A stretch of DNA of 64,000 nucleotides from Paramicrobacterium fandaimingii. GTDB lineage: Bacteria; Actinomycetota; Actinomycetes; Actinomycetales; Microbacteriaceae. The notes under the pieces were generated by a model. It had not been told where the DNA came from and did not search any database. It saw only the letters and a list, made by a program, of their open reading frames with translations. A program made the position numbers and the translations under genes. Below are positions 2 through 24,958 of this stretch, piece by piece (position 1 is the stretch's first letter; every line of letters begins with the position of its first letter). Location: positions 2,542,001-2,606,000 of the forward strand of contig NZ_CP061170.1 of assembly GCF_011751745.2 (NCBI RefSeq), in the 5' to 3' direction.

Positions 2-526
2 GTGCAGGAGACCTTGACCGCAGGGCTCGGCCGCACCCCGACCATCACCGAGATGGCCACGGCGATGGGCACCGATCGCGAAACAATCAGCGAAACGCTG
101 GCGGATGCTGCCCGAACCGTGACAACACTCGAAGACCCCACCGCGCAGTCGATCGCCTCGGAGATTCCGCTCCCCGAAGAGAGCGTGCTGCTCGGCGAAC
201 GACTCGAAGTGCTGGAGATCGCCATCAAGGCGCTTCCCGAACGCATGGCTCGCATCATCCGTGATGTGTACTTCGATGACCGGCCGGTCAAAGACATTGC
301 CGCAGAGCTGGGCATCTCTCACTCGGCGGTGTCGCAGCAGCGCTCGGAGGCCGTGCGGCTGCTTCACGACGCGCTCAACGCCTACTTCGTTGAGAAGCCG
401 GGGGCTGAAGTCGCTTCCACCTCGCGGGTTTCCACGGCGTCGCGCGCCGCGTACTTCGCTCGCATGGCCGAACACAGCAACGTACGTATCTCGACGGTGT
501 TTCGTCAGCACGCTCTGGCGGTCTGA
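2..526 (+). CDS. fliA: Flagellar/sporulation-type sigma factor (FliA/WhiG family), C-terminal part
   Basis: This is the C-terminal ~174 residues of a sigma-70 family protein. The reading frame is open to the window edge, so the GTG at position 2 is probably an internal valine. Residues 10-35 look like the end of sigma region 3. The stretch LPERMARIIRDVYF, then DIAAELGISHSAVSQQRSEA near residues 79-120, is a region 4.2 helix-turn-helix that would read the -35 element. The position directly before flagellin genes carrying CTAA/GCCGATA promoters fits the alternative flagellar sigma. About 50 extra residues follow region 4 and have no assigned role. Family assignment is firm; the exact ortholog (FliA or WhiG) is inferred from context. 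Confidence 0.85.
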   Translation: MQETLTAGLGRTPTITEMATAMGTDRETISETLADAARTVTTLEDPTAQSIASEIPLPEESVLLGERLEVLEIAIKALPERMARIIRDVYFDDRPVKDIAAELGISHSAVSQQRSEAVRLLHDALNAYFVEKPGAEVASTSRVSTASRAAYFARMAEHSNVRISTVFRQHALAV

Positions 527-654: not shown

Positions 655-681
655 CTAACATCCTCATTCCCCCTGCCGATA
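655..681 (+). promoter_or_regulatory. FliA-type promoter of flagellin 1
   Basis: CTAA at 655-658 and GCCGATA at 675-681 are separated by 16 nt. This matches the flagellar sigma consensus, and the same spacing recurs before flagellin 2, flgB and fliM. Transcription should start near 687-689. Confidence 0.85.
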
Positions 682-690
682 GCTGACAAC

Positions 691-734
691 AGAGCCCATG
701 GATGGGCTCTGCACCATGACCCACTCACGGAGGA
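691..734 (+). promoter_or_regulatory. Flagellin 1 leader with a CsrA-type hairpin and GGA at the ribosome-binding site
   Basis: Positions 691-710 form a perfect inverted repeat: AGAGCCCA pairs with TGGGCTCT and leaves the loop TGGA. The sequence around the loop, CATGGATG, resembles the CsrA core ANGGAUG. A second ANGGA (ACGGA, 727-731) overlaps the Shine-Dalgarno GGAGGA at 729-734, 7 nt before the start codon. One site in a hairpin and one on the ribosome site is the arrangement known from the Bacillus hag leader. CsrA binding here is an inference. Confidence 0.6.
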
Positions 735-1069
735 ACCAACAATGGGTATGCAAATCAACACAAACGTTGCGGCACTCAACGCGTACCGCAACCTGTCGAA
801 CACGCAGAACGATCTGTCGAATTCGCTGGAGAAGCTCTCGAGCGGTCTGCGCATCAACCGGGCAGCAGACGATGCTGCCGGCCTCGCGATCTCCGAGGGC
901 CTGCGCTCGCAGGTCAACGGCCTGAACGTTGCAGCCCGCAACGCGCAGGACGGCATCTCGGTCATCCAGACCGCGGAAGGTGCACTGACCGAGGTCCACT
1001 CAATTCTTCAGCGCGTCCGCGACCTCGCTGTTCAGGCCGGCAACGACTCGAACAACACCGAATCACGCG
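691..1069 (+). repeat. 5' block identical to the second flagellin (1721-2099)
   Basis: The 379 bp from the leader hairpin through codon ~109 of flagellin 1 match 1721-2099 base for base by line-by-line comparison. The match breaks sharply at both ends (c690/a1720 and c1070/a2100). This indicates recent duplication or gene conversion. Confidence 0.9.
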
Positions 1070-1611
1070 CAGCGATTCAGACGGAAGTGACACAGCTGAC
1101 CGACGAGCTCGTACGCATCGCCGATGCAACGAACTTCAACGGGATCGATCTACTGAAGGGCGGCGACCTCACATTCCAGGTTGGTGCCGACGGTGGCGCC
1201 GCGTCTCAGATCACTGTGTCGCTTGCCGACATGCAGGACGCTCTTTCGTCAATCACAGCCTTGACCTACGCCGCTGGTGCTCCGACGACGCACACACCTG
1301 ACGCGACGAACTACCTGTTCGACTCGGCAGCGAATGCGGCACTCGCGATCACCGCGATCGACACGGCCATCACGAAGGTGTCGTCTGCGCGTGCCGAGCT
1401 CGGTGCGTCGCAGAACCGCTTCGAGTCGACGATCAACAGCCTCAACGTCTCCTCGGAGAACCTTGCCGCTGCTGAGAGCCGCATCCGCGACACCGACATG
1501 GCGTCAGAGATGGTCAAGTACACCGCAGCGAACATCCTGTCGCAGGCAGGCACAGCAATGCTCGCCCAGGCCAACCAGGCAAACCAGGGCGTACTCCAGC
1601 TGCTCCGCTAA
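742..1611 (+). CDS. fliC: Flagellin, copy 1
   Basis: This 289-residue filament subunit starts at the ATG 7 nt after GGAGGA. The conserved flagellin N-terminal helix domain ([16 protein letters not shown], residues ~3-18, up to about residue 140) and the C-terminal domain ([16 protein letters not shown] onward, ending in QGVLQLLR) assemble the filament core. The variable middle, residues ~140-215, is short, so this is a compact flagellin without large D2/D3 domains. Translation could begin further upstream, but only this ATG has a ribosome site and matches the family start. It lies between its own promoter and a strong terminator, so it is transcribed alone. The ends are identical to copy 2; only the middle differs. 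Confidence 0.96.
   Translation: MGMQINTNVAALNAYRNLSNTQNDLSNSLEKLSSGLRINRAADDAAGLAISEGLRSQVNGLNVAARNAQDGISVIQTAEGALTEVHSILQRVRDLAVQAGNDSNNTESRAAIQTEVTQLTDELVRIADATNFNGIDLLKGGDLTFQVGADGGAASQITVSLADMQDALSSITALTYAAGAPTTHTPDATNYLFDSAANAALAITAIDTAITKVSSARAELGASQNRFESTINSLNVSSENLAAAESRIRDTDMASEMVKYTAANILSQAGTAMLAQANQANQGVLQLLR
1390..1611 (+). repeat. 3' block identical to the second flagellin (2411-2632)
   Basis: The last 222 bp of flagellin 1, encoding the C-terminal coiled-coil and D0 region, are identical to 2411-2632. Together with the identical 5' block, this leaves only the central ~320-340 bp divergent. Confidence 0.88.
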
Positions 1612-1621
1612 CACCGGTGAT

Positions 1622-1664
1622 GAGCGCTCGACGGCAGACCGCCGTCGAGCGCTCGTTGCTTTTC
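1622..1664 (+). terminator. Intrinsic terminator of flagellin 1
   Basis: A perfect 14-bp stem (1622-1635 with 1641-1654) and a 5-nt loop are followed by GTTGCTTTTCC. It insulates flagellin 1 from flagellin 2. Confidence 0.85.
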
Positions 1665-1683
1665 CCCACGCGACAACGTCCGC

Positions 1684-1710
1684 CTAACGGTTCTCTGCTC
1701 GATGCCGATA
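1684..1710 (+). promoter_or_regulatory. FliA-type promoter of flagellin 2
   Basis: CTAA 1684-1687 and GCCGATA 1704-1710 have the same 16-nt spacing as the flagellin 1 promoter. The surrounding bases differ, so the two boxes are conserved by function and not merely as part of the duplicated block, which starts at 1721. Confidence 0.85.
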
Positions 1711-1720
1711 GGTGAGGATA

Positions 1721-1764
1721 AGAGCCCATGGATGGGCTCTGCACCATGACCCACTCACGGAGGA
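1721..1764 (+). promoter_or_regulatory. Flagellin 2 leader, identical CsrA-type hairpin
   Basis: The hairpin with a TGGA loop (1721-1740) and the GGA-containing ribosome site (1757-1764) are exact copies of the flagellin 1 leader. Both filament genes should therefore share any post-transcriptional control. Confidence 0.6.
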
Positions 1765-1771
1765 ACCAACA

Positions 1772-2632
1772 ATGGGTATGCAAATCAACACAAACGTTGC
1801 GGCACTCAACGCGTACCGCAACCTGTCGAACACGCAGAACGATCTGTCGAATTCGCTGGAGAAGCTCTCGAGCGGTCTGCGCATCAACCGGGCAGCAGAC
1901 GATGCTGCCGGCCTCGCGATCTCCGAGGGCCTGCGCTCGCAGGTCAACGGCCTGAACGTTGCAGCCCGCAACGCGCAGGACGGCATCTCGGTCATCCAGA
2001 CCGCGGAAGGTGCACTGACCGAGGTCCACTCAATTCTTCAGCGCGTCCGCGACCTCGCTGTTCAGGCCGGCAACGACTCGAACAACACCGAATCACGCGA
2101 AGCGATCACCACCGAAGTTACCGGTCTCGTCGATGAGCTCATCCGCATCTCCGACTCCACAAACTTCAACGGCATCCAGCTGCTCGACGGTTCGGCCGGG
2201 GCCGCAGGTGACGGCGTGCTGAGCTTCCAGGTTGGAGCAGACGGATCCACCGCGAACCAAATCACGGTTGATCTGGGCGCCGCGGACATCAAGACGCTCG
2301 CGACCACCCTGCAAGGCAGCATTGTCACCACCGATGGCTTTGCGGACGCGACTCTCGCCGCTGCCACGATCGACACCATTGACACGGCCATCACGTCGGT
2401 CTCGTCTGCTCGTGCCGAGCTCGGTGCGTCGCAGAACCGCTTCGAGTCGACGATCAACAGCCTCAACGTCTCCTCGGAGAACCTTGCCGCTGCTGAGAGC
2501 CGCATCCGCGACACCGACATGGCGTCAGAGATGGTCAAGTACACCGCAGCGAACATCCTGTCGCAGGCAGGCACAGCAATGCTCGCCCAGGCCAACCAGG
2601 CAAACCAGGGCGTACTCCAGCTGCTCCGCTAA
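1772..2632 (+). CDS. fliC: Flagellin, copy 2
   Basis: This is a second compact flagellin of 286 residues. Its N-terminal ~109 and C-terminal ~73 residues are encoded by DNA identical to copy 1. The middle differs (for example [20 protein letters not shown] against a shorter segment in copy 1), so the two proteins would share the polymerising core but expose different surfaces. The start ATG follows GGAGGA by 7 nt. Whether both are co-assembled or one predominates cannot be read from the sequence. Confidence 0.96.
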
Positions 2633-19885: not shown

Positions 19886-20644
19886 GTGACTCTGGCGCTC
19901 AACCTGGGCTGGCTCGAAGCGACGATGCTTGCCGCCGTGCGCATCACCGCATTTCTCATGATCGCTCCCCCGTTCTCGTATGGCGCCATCCCCGCGCGCG
20001 TCAAGGCGATGCTCGGCGTCGGGCTCTCCCTCGCCGTCGGCGCCTCCGTCTCGGTCGGCTATGAGCCGCTGGGCACGGGACAGTTCTTCGGAACGCTCGT
20101 TCTGCAGCTCGTGACGGGCGCCCTCCTCGGCTTTCTCGTTCTCGTGTGCTTTTCAGCCGTGCAGGCGGCGGGAAACCTCCTCGACGTGTTCGGCGGGTTC
20201 CAGCTTGCACAGGCCTTCGACCCGCAGGCGATGATCAACGGCGCCCAGTTCACCAGGCTCTTTCAGATGACCGCGCTCGCCCTGCTCTTCGCATCTGGCG
20301 GCTACCAGCTCATCTTCGCCGGCCTGATCGGCAGCTTTCGTGCGATCCCCCTCGATGGAATCTTCGCCATCAGCCAGCCGGCCGACATGATCGTCGCCGC
20401 CGTCGGCCAGATGTTCCTCTCGGCCGTGCAGATCGCCGGCCCGCTCGTGATCGTGCTCTTTCTCGCCGACGCGGGCCTCGGCCTCATCACCCGCGTCGCT
20501 CCCGCGCTCAACGCGTTCGCAATGGGCTTTCCGCTCAAGATCATCATCACGCTCATGCTCGTGGGAACGGTGTACCTCGTTCTCCCCGGCGTCGTGAACG
20601 CCCTGACAGAGGACGCTCTGAACATGATGGCGGGGGTGAGATAG
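19886..20644 (+). CDS. fliR: Flagellar export gate protein FliR
   Basis: This 252-residue protein has about six membrane helices. It shows FliR features such as AAVRITAFLMIAPPFSYGAIPARVKAMLG and the DPQAMINGAQFTRLF loop. The GTG start lies 1 nt after the fliQ stop. Its final base is shared with the GTG of flhB. Confidence 0.95.
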   Translation: MTLALNLGWLEATMLAAVRITAFLMIAPPFSYGAIPARVKAMLGVGLSLAVGASVSVGYEPLGTGQFFGTLVLQLVTGALLGFLVLVCFSAVQAAGNLLDVFGGFQLAQAFDPQAMINGAQFTRLFQMTALALLFASGGYQLIFAGLIGSFRAIPLDGIFAISQPADMIVAAVGQMFLSAVQIAGPLVIVLFLADAGLGLITRVAPALNAFAMGFPLKIIITLMLVGTVYLVLPGVVNALTEDALNMMAGVR

Positions 20645-21735
20645 TGGCGAAGGACGACAGCGGTGAACGCTCCGAGAAAGCAACAGACAAGCACCTCCGC
20701 GATGCACGGCAGAAGGGGCAGCTCTCGCGAAGCCAAGACCTCACTGCCTGGGTCGGCATCGCTGCCGCCGCCGTCATGATGCCCGTCGCCATTGCCGCCG
20801 GCGCCTCGGCAGGCACAGAGCAGATGGTCACCGTCGCCACCATTGCGAGCAACCCCGACCCGGGCGAGGCCCTCGCCGCCCTCGGCAACGGCTTCGCCAT
20901 GATTCCGGATGTTCTCGGCCCGATGTTCGTCGTCGTCGCCGTCGCCGTGCTCATCGCCGCCGTCACGCAGGGCGGCGTTCACCTGAAGAAGATGACGGGA
21001 CGCTTCGAGCAGTTCAACATCGTCAGCGGCGTGAAGCGCGTTTTCGGCGTTCGCGCACTGTGGGAAGGCGCAAAGGCGATCCTCAAGACAGCGGCCATCG
21101 GCGGCGCGCTGTGGATCGTCGTCTCCGGACTGATGCCCGTTCTCATGTCGAGCGGATCCCACTCGGTGAGCCAGCTGCTTGAAGCGGCCGCAGGCGGCAC
21201 GGCGGGGATGCTGCAGGCAGCCGTCGCCGTCGGTGTCGGCCTCGCGATCATCGACCTCTTTGTCGTCATGCGACGCAACCGCAAGCACACACGCATGACC
21301 AAGCGCGAGCTGAAAGACGACAACAAGAACTCAGACGGCGACCCGCTCATTCGGCAGCAGCGGCGGTCGCGTCAACTCGCGATGAGCCGTAACCGCATGA
21401 TCGCCGCCGTCACAGACGCCGACGTCGTTGTTGTGAACCCCACCCACGTTGCCGTCGCCCTCAAGTACGAGCCGGGCAAGTCTGCCCCGCGCGTCGTCGC
21501 AAAGGGCGCGGGGATCATCGCCACGCGCATTCGAGAAAAAGCAGACAAAGTCGGCGTTCCCATGGTGCAAGACATTCCGCTCGCACGCGCCATCCATGCA
21601 GCGTGCCAGCTCGGCCAAGAGATTCCCGCCGACCTGTACAACGCCGTCGCCCAGATTCTGGTCTTCGTCATGGCCCTCAAGAAACGCGGCTCAACCCGCG
21701 GCATCCATTCGCTTCCCCAAAGGAGGACAGCATGA
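20644..21735 (+). CDS. flhB: Flagellar export switch protein FlhB
   Basis: This 363-residue protein begins with the FlhB pattern DDSGERSEKATDKHLRDARQKGQLSRS. It carries four membrane segments and the cytosolic self-cleavage motif Asn265-Pro266-Thr267-His268. Cleavage between Asn and Pro switches export from hook to filament substrates under FliK control. GTG 20644 overlaps the fliR stop and starts the conserved N-terminus; the frame extends further upstream only by chance. Confidence 0.96.
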   Translation: MAKDDSGERSEKATDKHLRDARQKGQLSRSQDLTAWVGIAAAAVMMPVAIAAGASAGTEQMVTVATIASNPDPGEALAALGNGFAMIPDVLGPMFVVVAVAVLIAAVTQGGVHLKKMTGRFEQFNIVSGVKRVFGVRALWEGAKAILKTAAIGGALWIVVSGLMPVLMSSGSHSVSQLLEAAAGGTAGMLQAAVAVGVGLAIIDLFVVMRRNRKHTRMTKRELKDDNKNSDGDPLIRQQRRSRQLAMSRNRMIAAVTDADVVVVNPTHVAVALKYEPGKSAPRVVAKGAGIIATRIREKADKVGVPMVQDIPLARAIHAACQLGQEIPADLYNAVAQILVFVMALKKRGSTRGIHSLPQRRTA

Positions 21736-24712: not shown

Positions 24713-24958
24713 ATGCTGGTGTTGACGAGACGAATCGGCGAGCGCGTACTGATCGGCGACGACGTCGAGCTCACCGTTCTCGATGTCAAGGGCGACACCG
24801 TGCGCATCGGCGTTCAGGCTCCCCGCGAAACGCGCATTCAGCGGGCAGAGCTTGTCGAGGCCGTGGGGAAAGAGAACGTCGAGGCTGCTGCGGCGCAGTC
24901 CGATGCCGGTGCCGAAAACGCCCTGAAGCGCGCGCTCGCACGCCGCACGCCATCATGA
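24713..24958 (+). CDS. csrA: RNA-binding translational regulator CsrA
   Basis: This 81-residue protein opens with MLVLTRRIGERVLIGDDVELTVLDVKGDTVRIGVQAP, the complete CsrA beta core, including the conserved N-terminal RNA-contact residues and the GVxAP/R motif. The tail is Ala-rich. CsrA dimers bind GGA in hairpin loops and on ribosome sites. Several such sites lie in the leaders of this same cluster. Its usual antagonist FliW is not in the window. A -10-like ATAGGCT at 24701-24707 would give an extra, nearly leaderless transcript. Confidence 0.95.
   Translation: MLVLTRRIGERVLIGDDVELTVLDVKGDTVRIGVQAPRETRIQRAELVEAVGKENVEAAAAQSDAGAENALKRALARRTPS

Follow-up and report, generated by a model that had tools for sequence, protein, structure and literature searches.

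Actinobacterial flagellin leaders with a GGA-loop hairpin as probable two-site targets of CsrA

The closest described counterparts of the leaders reported here belong to flaA of Campylobacter jejuni and hag of Bacillus subtilis. In C. jejuni, CsrA control of flaA was demonstrated by gel shifts, footprints and point changes; the flaA leader is 45 nt long and carries two GGA stem-loops, and the core motif CANGGANG was named with it (PMC4894983). The hag leader of B. subtilis has two CsrA sites. BS1 is located at A51-A55 of the transcript (PMC8523840) and BS2 covers the Shine-Dalgarno sequence; csrA and fliW are adjacent genes (PMC7652899, PMC6529632, PMC8523840). In RsmE complexes the RNA is an A-N-GGA-N hexaloop closed by a stem (PMC7652899).

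In actinobacteria, the idea that CsrA controls flagellin goes back to 2008, when it was put forward for Kineococcus radiotolerans solely on the basis of a Shine-Dalgarno site with 9 of 12 bases matching BS2 (PMC2587704). Actinobacteria were counted among the phyla in which FliW may act on CsrA (PMC4682653), CsrA and FliW were among the queries of a phylum-wide study of actinobacterial flagella (PMC10746217), and a comparison of two Microbacterium strains in a biofilm context reported csrA in one of them (PMC10384088). Among the titles and beginnings of abstracts listed, we found neither a CsrA-flagellin experiment in the phylum nor a description of the hairpin presented here. The initial annotation of the locus regarded CsrA control of flagellin as little described in high-GC Gram-positives. 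For experiments this agrees with the titles and abstracts covered; as a proposal it dates back to Kineococcus.

The flagellin locus and its two leaders

The window, i.e. the entire stretch of 64,000 nt of Paramicrobacterium fandaimingii DNA which was analysed, contains two flagellin genes on the plus strand. The first (742..1611, 289 aa) matched Flagellin_N at 5.6e-50 and Flagellin_C at 1.6e-28, the second (1772..2632, 286 aa) at 2.4e-49 and 1.8e-28, respectively. Upstream on the same strand the window start cuts a sigma-70-family gene, leaving its 3' part with regions 3 and 4 (2..526; Pfam Sigma70_r4 1.2e-11, Sigma70_r3 3.2e-06). Judged by its position this is probably fliA (sigma-28). The csrA gene (24713..24958, plus strand, 81 aa, PF02599 9.2e-22) starts exactly where the initial annotation had placed it. 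Missing from that annotation was fliW, which is located 3.5 kb before the window (G000:C1:2538128-2538478; E 5.2e-23). CsrA and FliW of the source genome match their families over full or nearly full length. CsrA matched solved CsrA/RsmE chains, including 2jpp_A and, over residues 2-63, 5dmb_D, a chain of a FliW complex; by position it possesses Arg44, an important residue in CsrA. As to gene order, fliW lies behind flgL in the source genome, about 28 kb from csrA; in several sampled genomes (G206, G189, G224) fliW and csrA are adjacent.

Each flagellin gene is preceded by a sigma-28-type promoter, assigned from the sequence by the sigma-28 consensus. Upstream of flagellin 1 (656..682, plus strand) TAAC starts at 656 and a -10-like GCCGATAG covers 675-682; upstream of flagellin 2 (1685..1711, plus strand) the respective elements are TAAC at 1685 and GCCGATAG at 1704-1711. 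Just 3' of either promoter, at the presumed 5' end of the transcript, is the hairpin AGAGCCC-AUGGAU-GGGCUCU, denoted SL1. In leader 1 (690..711, plus strand) its stem consists of 691-697 paired with 704-710, and the hexaloop AUGGAU occupies 698-703. Counting the A-U loop closure and a flanking C690-G711 pair this amounts to 9 bp. Loop and stem in leader 2 (1721..1740, plus strand) are identical; without the flanking pair 8 bp are formed. The loop core is CAUGGAUG, with GGA in the apical loop as in CANGGANG, and the GGA at 700-702 is the proposed high-affinity CsrA site BS1. At the ribosome site of each leader, 16 nt past the hairpin, ACGGAGG constitutes the Shine-Dalgarno sequence (727..733 and 1757..1763, both plus strand). 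It contains a second GGA (729-731 in leader 1) as the proposed CsrA site BS2, 29 nt from the first, start to start. Thus, the elements of the initial annotation were recovered, i.e. an 8-bp hairpin with a GGA loop directly after each FliA-type promoter and ACGGA overlapping the Shine-Dalgarno sequence 16 nt later.

The two flagellin genes share a 379-base 5' block (691-1069 identical to 1721-2099), which begins exactly at the hairpin, and a 222-base 3' block (1390-1611 identical to 2411-2632). Flagellin promoters and middle parts differ. The identical blocks point to recent duplication or gene conversion. The hairpin is indeed present in both leaders as originally annotated, yet with 691-1069 duplicated these are not two independent pieces of evidence. 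Because they represent one duplicated segment the window leaders were treated as a single observation; therefore, the case rests on relatives.

The leader folded with a z of -2.75 compared to shuffles, 2 of 200 of which folded equally well. Allowing up to three mismatches, the 20-base hairpin element occurred within the 64 kb only in the two flagellin leaders, with matches on both strands (expected 0.00). Rfam had no family at the flagellin leaders at the gathering threshold, and between 600 and 1900 the sole match up to E 5 was an irrelevant one at 1620-1653. A scan for sigma-70 promoters and terminators, with sigma-28 outside its coverage, returned nothing on the plus strand between the flagellin genes. 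A long G+C-rich inverted repeat at 1622-1654, just past flagellin 1, may act as a terminator, although its T run is weak; it is absent from the list of the terminator scan. When the window was searched for further CsrA sites (ANGGAN hexaloop hairpins with at least 6 of 7 pairs), five candidates appeared in addition to the two leaders. These were discounted because the average over all 64 triplets was 4.8. The csrA leader of the window had no such GGA hairpin by eye.

How does this layout compare with the known systems? As in C. jejuni flaA the leader is short (45 nt in flaA and, given the presumed start site, about 53 nt here), SL1 has an ANGGA loop, a second ANGGA is at the ribosome site, compensatory changes are seen, and fliW is in the genome without adjoining csrA. 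In flaA the ribosome site has a second stem-loop; its putative counterpart here, SL2, has a long loop and moderate support. The stem sequences differ, as does the spacing, with 21 nt in flaA versus 29 nt, start to start (PMC4894983). Further, flaA mRNA localisation and CsrA titration are described for C. jejuni (PMC4894983). With hag the locus shares two CsrA sites, here proposed ones, a BS2 over the Shine-Dalgarno sequence, the flagellin gene and the presence of FliW. In contrast to hag, BS1 would lie within about the first 20 nt of the transcript, and csrA and fliW are 28 kb apart (PMC7652899, PMC6529632, PMC8523840). The initial annotation had likened the leaders to the two-site layout of hag. 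Two GGA sites, the second over the Shine-Dalgarno sequence, are borne out; the resemblance to Campylobacter flaA is closer, however, as the transcript is inferred to begin with the hairpin. The leader core equals the ANGGAN hexaloop of RsmE ligands, although those are from other bacteria and not from flagellin leaders of this phylum (PMC7652899). The Kineococcus proposal likewise concerned an actinobacterium with a flagellin Shine-Dalgarno site as CsrA target; in its accessible text it came without the SL1 hairpin, FliW, conservation and covariation (PMC2587704).

Conservation of the loop and covariation of the stem

Relatives were collected with the first flagellin as query against named genomes. 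Of the 583 matches that were confirmed the best 80 were kept, near relatives by choice, from Microbacterium, Cryobacterium, Leifsonia, Curtobacterium, Arthrobacter, Cellulomonas, Nocardioides, Blastococcus, Dactylosporangium, Demequina and other genera. Together with the two leaders of the window, two from the same genus and 40 from a class sample they yielded 124 leaders; removal of those identical over 70 nt left 120. A fixed rule required a hexaloop containing GGA, no fewer than 5 of 6 flanking pairs and a position 24-75 nt before the start. It was passed by 112/120 leaders, a figure which does not equal 112 independent events since the rows are related. Shuffled leaders had a mean of 4.38 and a maximum of 9. 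At the same place the best alternative loop triplet reached 15/120 and the median triplet 2. The reverse-complement triplet TCC was in the loop of only 3/120 leaders. Because of this disparity between GGA and TCC the hairpin element is strand-specific, as for an RNA element. Among the eight leaders which failed the rule, a shorter GGA hairpin was visible by eye in five (L042, L052, L095, L098, L124) and no GGA hairpin in three (L081, L122, L126).

ANGGANG was matched in 121 of the 124 leaders, here not deduplicated. A CCGAT-like element was in range in 90 of these 121, and in 73 of the 90 it was positioned 24-26 nt before the GGA. The ribosome-site GGA was part of TCACGGAGG in 58 and of TCAAGGAGG in 18 leaders (together 76/121); the GGA-GGA spacing was 24-31 nt in 86/121. 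From other classes of the phylum 60 leaders were fetched, a part of all flagellin copies. The rule was passed by 16 of 59, compared to 2.6 in shuffles (maximum 8) and 5 for the next triplet, and in several further leaders a short hairpin of the GGCAAGGAUGCC type was visible by eye.

Next to the loop, the stem was analysed in 117 aligned hairpins, 106 of them distinct. Pairing was possible in 83.4% of the cells versus 61.1% after shuffling. The covariation score was 0.521 against 0.166 in shuffles, none of 500 reaching it; shuffles ignore the relatedness of the rows, whereas slid-partner controls retain it, and these scored at most 0.124. Changes on both sides were seen in 199 cells (77.5 in shuffles, none of which reached 199). 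They affected 8 of 9 pairs, a count which was also reached by 56/500 shuffles. A whole-leader alignment of 61 rows repeated the covariation result, and a consensus fold without supplied structure recovered the same SL1 stem. A-N-GGA-N-G was present in 117/117 rows, preceded by C in at least 90%. GGA itself was a selection rule for the rows; the invariant loop-flanking A10 and G16 were not part of that choice. Very dissimilar stems carry the same core, e.g. GGGGC-AAGGAU-GCCCC in L128 and CCGG-U-ACGGAU-G-CCGG in L119. An alignment of related flagellin leaders had been suggested in the initial annotation, to see whether the stem covaries around an unchanging loop GGA. It gave a positive result: the core is kept as CANGGANG while the stem covaries.

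A second helix, SL2, is predicted over the start codon. In leader 1 (719..747, plus strand) ACCCA at 719-723 pairs with UGGGU at 743-747, which puts the Shine-Dalgarno sequence into the loop; in leader 2 (1749..1777, plus strand) ACCCA at 1749-1753 pairs with UGGGU at 1773-1777. When the folds began at 688 and 1718, two C-G pairs had a predicted probability of 0.97-0.99 and the outer A-U pair one of 0.63-0.67; the values in leader 1 were 0.99 and 0.63, respectively. Among relatives a 5-base upstream complement of +2..+6 was found in 65/119 leaders, with 30.9 expected from upstream parts of leaders with a different target. Complement windows starting at +5 to +12 had no such excess in the 119 leaders. 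In some classes of codon 2 the partners changed along with it. UGGGU occurred with ACCCA and similar sequences in 48/70 leaders, UGAGU with ACUCA or ACUCG in 8/9, UGGGA with UCCCA or UCCCG in 4/6 and UGGCU with AGCCG or GGCCA in 3/5. With UGGGC (1/13), UGGCA (0/6) and UGUCG (0/5) the partner was scarce or missing. In other classes the complement at +2..+6 was not in excess (6/59 versus 5.5 expected). We regard SL2 as likely in the window leaders, with moderate support, and as lineage-dependent outside the window. As a separate observation, leaders of other classes (L137-L196) had an excess of complements at +4..+8 (12/59 versus 4.6 expected), two bases off the class pattern.

Distribution of csrA, fliW and the hairpin

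In a class sample of 296 genomes 38 had a Flagellin_N match over the cut-off and 37 had csrA. Flagellin_N also detects FlgL, so that these flagellin genomes include some with only a FlgL-like match. csrA was present in 35/38 genomes with a Flagellin_N match versus 2/258 without. FliW was found in 38 of 45 genomes searched and in all 37 which carried both a Flagellin_N match and csrA, G001 and G003 included. Within the genus of the window three genomes had flagellin, csrA and fliW, and two had none of the three genes. In the wider phylum 60/396 genomes had a Flagellin_N match, and csrA was present in 54/56 of those not already covered. No csrA match was found in G480 and G626, both with a Flagellin_N match; the G480 leader has only a 4-of-6 hairpin candidate and an uncertain start codon.

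The 296 genomes were then searched with a covariance model built on 61 leaders. Matches at E<1e-6 were in 25 genomes; 24 of these belong to the 37 with csrA, and the only one from the remaining 259 is G027. Twelve of the 25 supplied training rows and 13 did not, although some of the 13 resemble named training loci (the leader of G299 is the same as L071). No match at this threshold was obtained in 13/37 csrA-positive genomes, some of which have broken contigs or Flagellin_N matches of the FlgL type only. In csrA-negative genomes matches, G027 aside, started at 2.7e-5, and at E<=1 217 genomes matched, which is chance level. With strict filters the matches in the source genome at E<=1 were the two flagellin leaders only. 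Genomes with a Flagellin_N match and no csrA were considered as negative controls. In G027, an assembly 80% complete, the hairpin is present and csrA and FliW were not found. G273 had neither csrA nor FliW; its 9.2 Mb contain a single Flagellin_N match, upstream of which no GGA hairpin was visible by eye. G036, without csrA, had one weak Flagellin_N match (49.9 bits), probably FlgL.

Some single loci are recorded here in their own right. csrA matches without a Flagellin_N match are at G109:C14:5534-5677 and G245:C69:6530-6676, and a second csrA copy is at G292:C94:6025-6165. In G199 (C13, just below 127583; L197 about 1633-1974, minus strand) a 113-aa flagellin-like ORF is located upstream of an intact flagellin. 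The ORF is probably a remnant, yet the leader in front of it is retained and scores strongly (model E 1.4e-8).

The initial annotation had named as contrary evidence related genomes which keep csrA and the stem and lose the loop GGA. One such case was encountered. G224 is csrA- and fliW-positive, and a flagellin-like gene near 21671 of its contig C55 (41 bits, L131) has kept the stem with the loop ACGCAA. However, the neighbouring copy, near 20633 and with a Flagellin_N score below the cut-off, has retained the GGA hairpin with the loop AAGGAC. L081 has a stem without loop GGA, and another copy of the same assembly (L076) keeps the GGA hairpin. The ACGCAA copy and L081 appear to be paralogues which have escaped this regulation; the former provides a natural escape test.

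Proposed mechanism and alternative readings

Taken with the Bacillus and Campylobacter systems, the data argue that the flagellin mRNA is, in all likelihood, a two-site CsrA target within a flagellin-FliW-CsrA homeostasis loop. The CsrA-type switch proposed in the initial annotation is thereby supported, i.e. by stem covariation, by the loop GGA in 112/120 leaders and by csrA and fliW tracking flagellin. Transcription would start about 8 nt after the sigma-28 -10 box. The mRNA would then probably begin with SL1, whose ANGGAN hexaloop may capture one RNA-binding face of a CsrA dimer. The other face would bind the GGA in the Shine-Dalgarno sequence 29 nt on (start to start), which SL2 may hold in its loop. 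With CsrA on SL1 and the Shine-Dalgarno sequence 30S binding would be blocked. Export of flagellin would release free FliW, CsrA would be taken off and translation would resume. By analogy to Bacillus and Campylobacter, where binding, repression, FliW antagonism and feedback are described, SL1 very probably lets CsrA block flagellin translation.

Could the hairpin serve without CsrA? It might be a stabiliser of the mRNA 5' end or a feature of the transcription start, with an incidental loop GGA. The stable hairpin and its fixed distance to the -10 box in 73/90 leaders would agree with this. Yet a stabiliser needs a stem and not a loop, whereas A-N-GGA-N-G is least variable and the stem changes; the runner-up to GGA as loop triplet is far behind (15 leaders versus 112), and the hairpin co-occurs with csrA. 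We thus deem this reading quite improbable. The inverted repeat could also be an operator in the DNA, placed just past the start site and bound by a transcription factor; a perfect dyad right after the promoter would fit this. But its arms covary without a fixed sequence, and its centre is strand-specific, with GGA far exceeding TCC, which is unexpected for a symmetric operator; an operator is therefore extremely unlikely.

A further alternative retains CsrA binding and has it mainly alter transcript stability or activate, rather than block ribosomes. In B. subtilis CsrA binding also lowers the amount of hag transcript (PMC6529632). Against this, the window and the majority of the 121 leaders have their second GGA at the Shine-Dalgarno sequence, a layout by which ribosomes are blocked in B. 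subtilis and translation is repressed in C. jejuni (PMC7652899; PMC4894983). Accordingly, we give little credence to stability or activation as the main effect and favour the translational block.

On this two-site reading the actinobacterial phylum would join Bacillus and Campylobacter, for which such a flagellin switch has been shown, and Clostridioides, for which one has been reported. The covarying RNA motif is directly testable and, being without an Rfam match, could be added to Rfam. In the class csrA goes closely together with flagellar genes, so that the flagellar role of CsrA could be studied cleanly in these bacteria. Beyond this we tentatively suggest, at somewhat less than even chances, that in the class Actinomycetes CsrA is a dedicated flagellin regulator and not a global one. 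It would be kept or lost with the flagellum and act with FliW on essentially one mRNA, via a class-wide 5'-terminal CANGGANG hairpin and a start-codon helix. If true, this would be the flagellin homeostasis module in stripped-down form.
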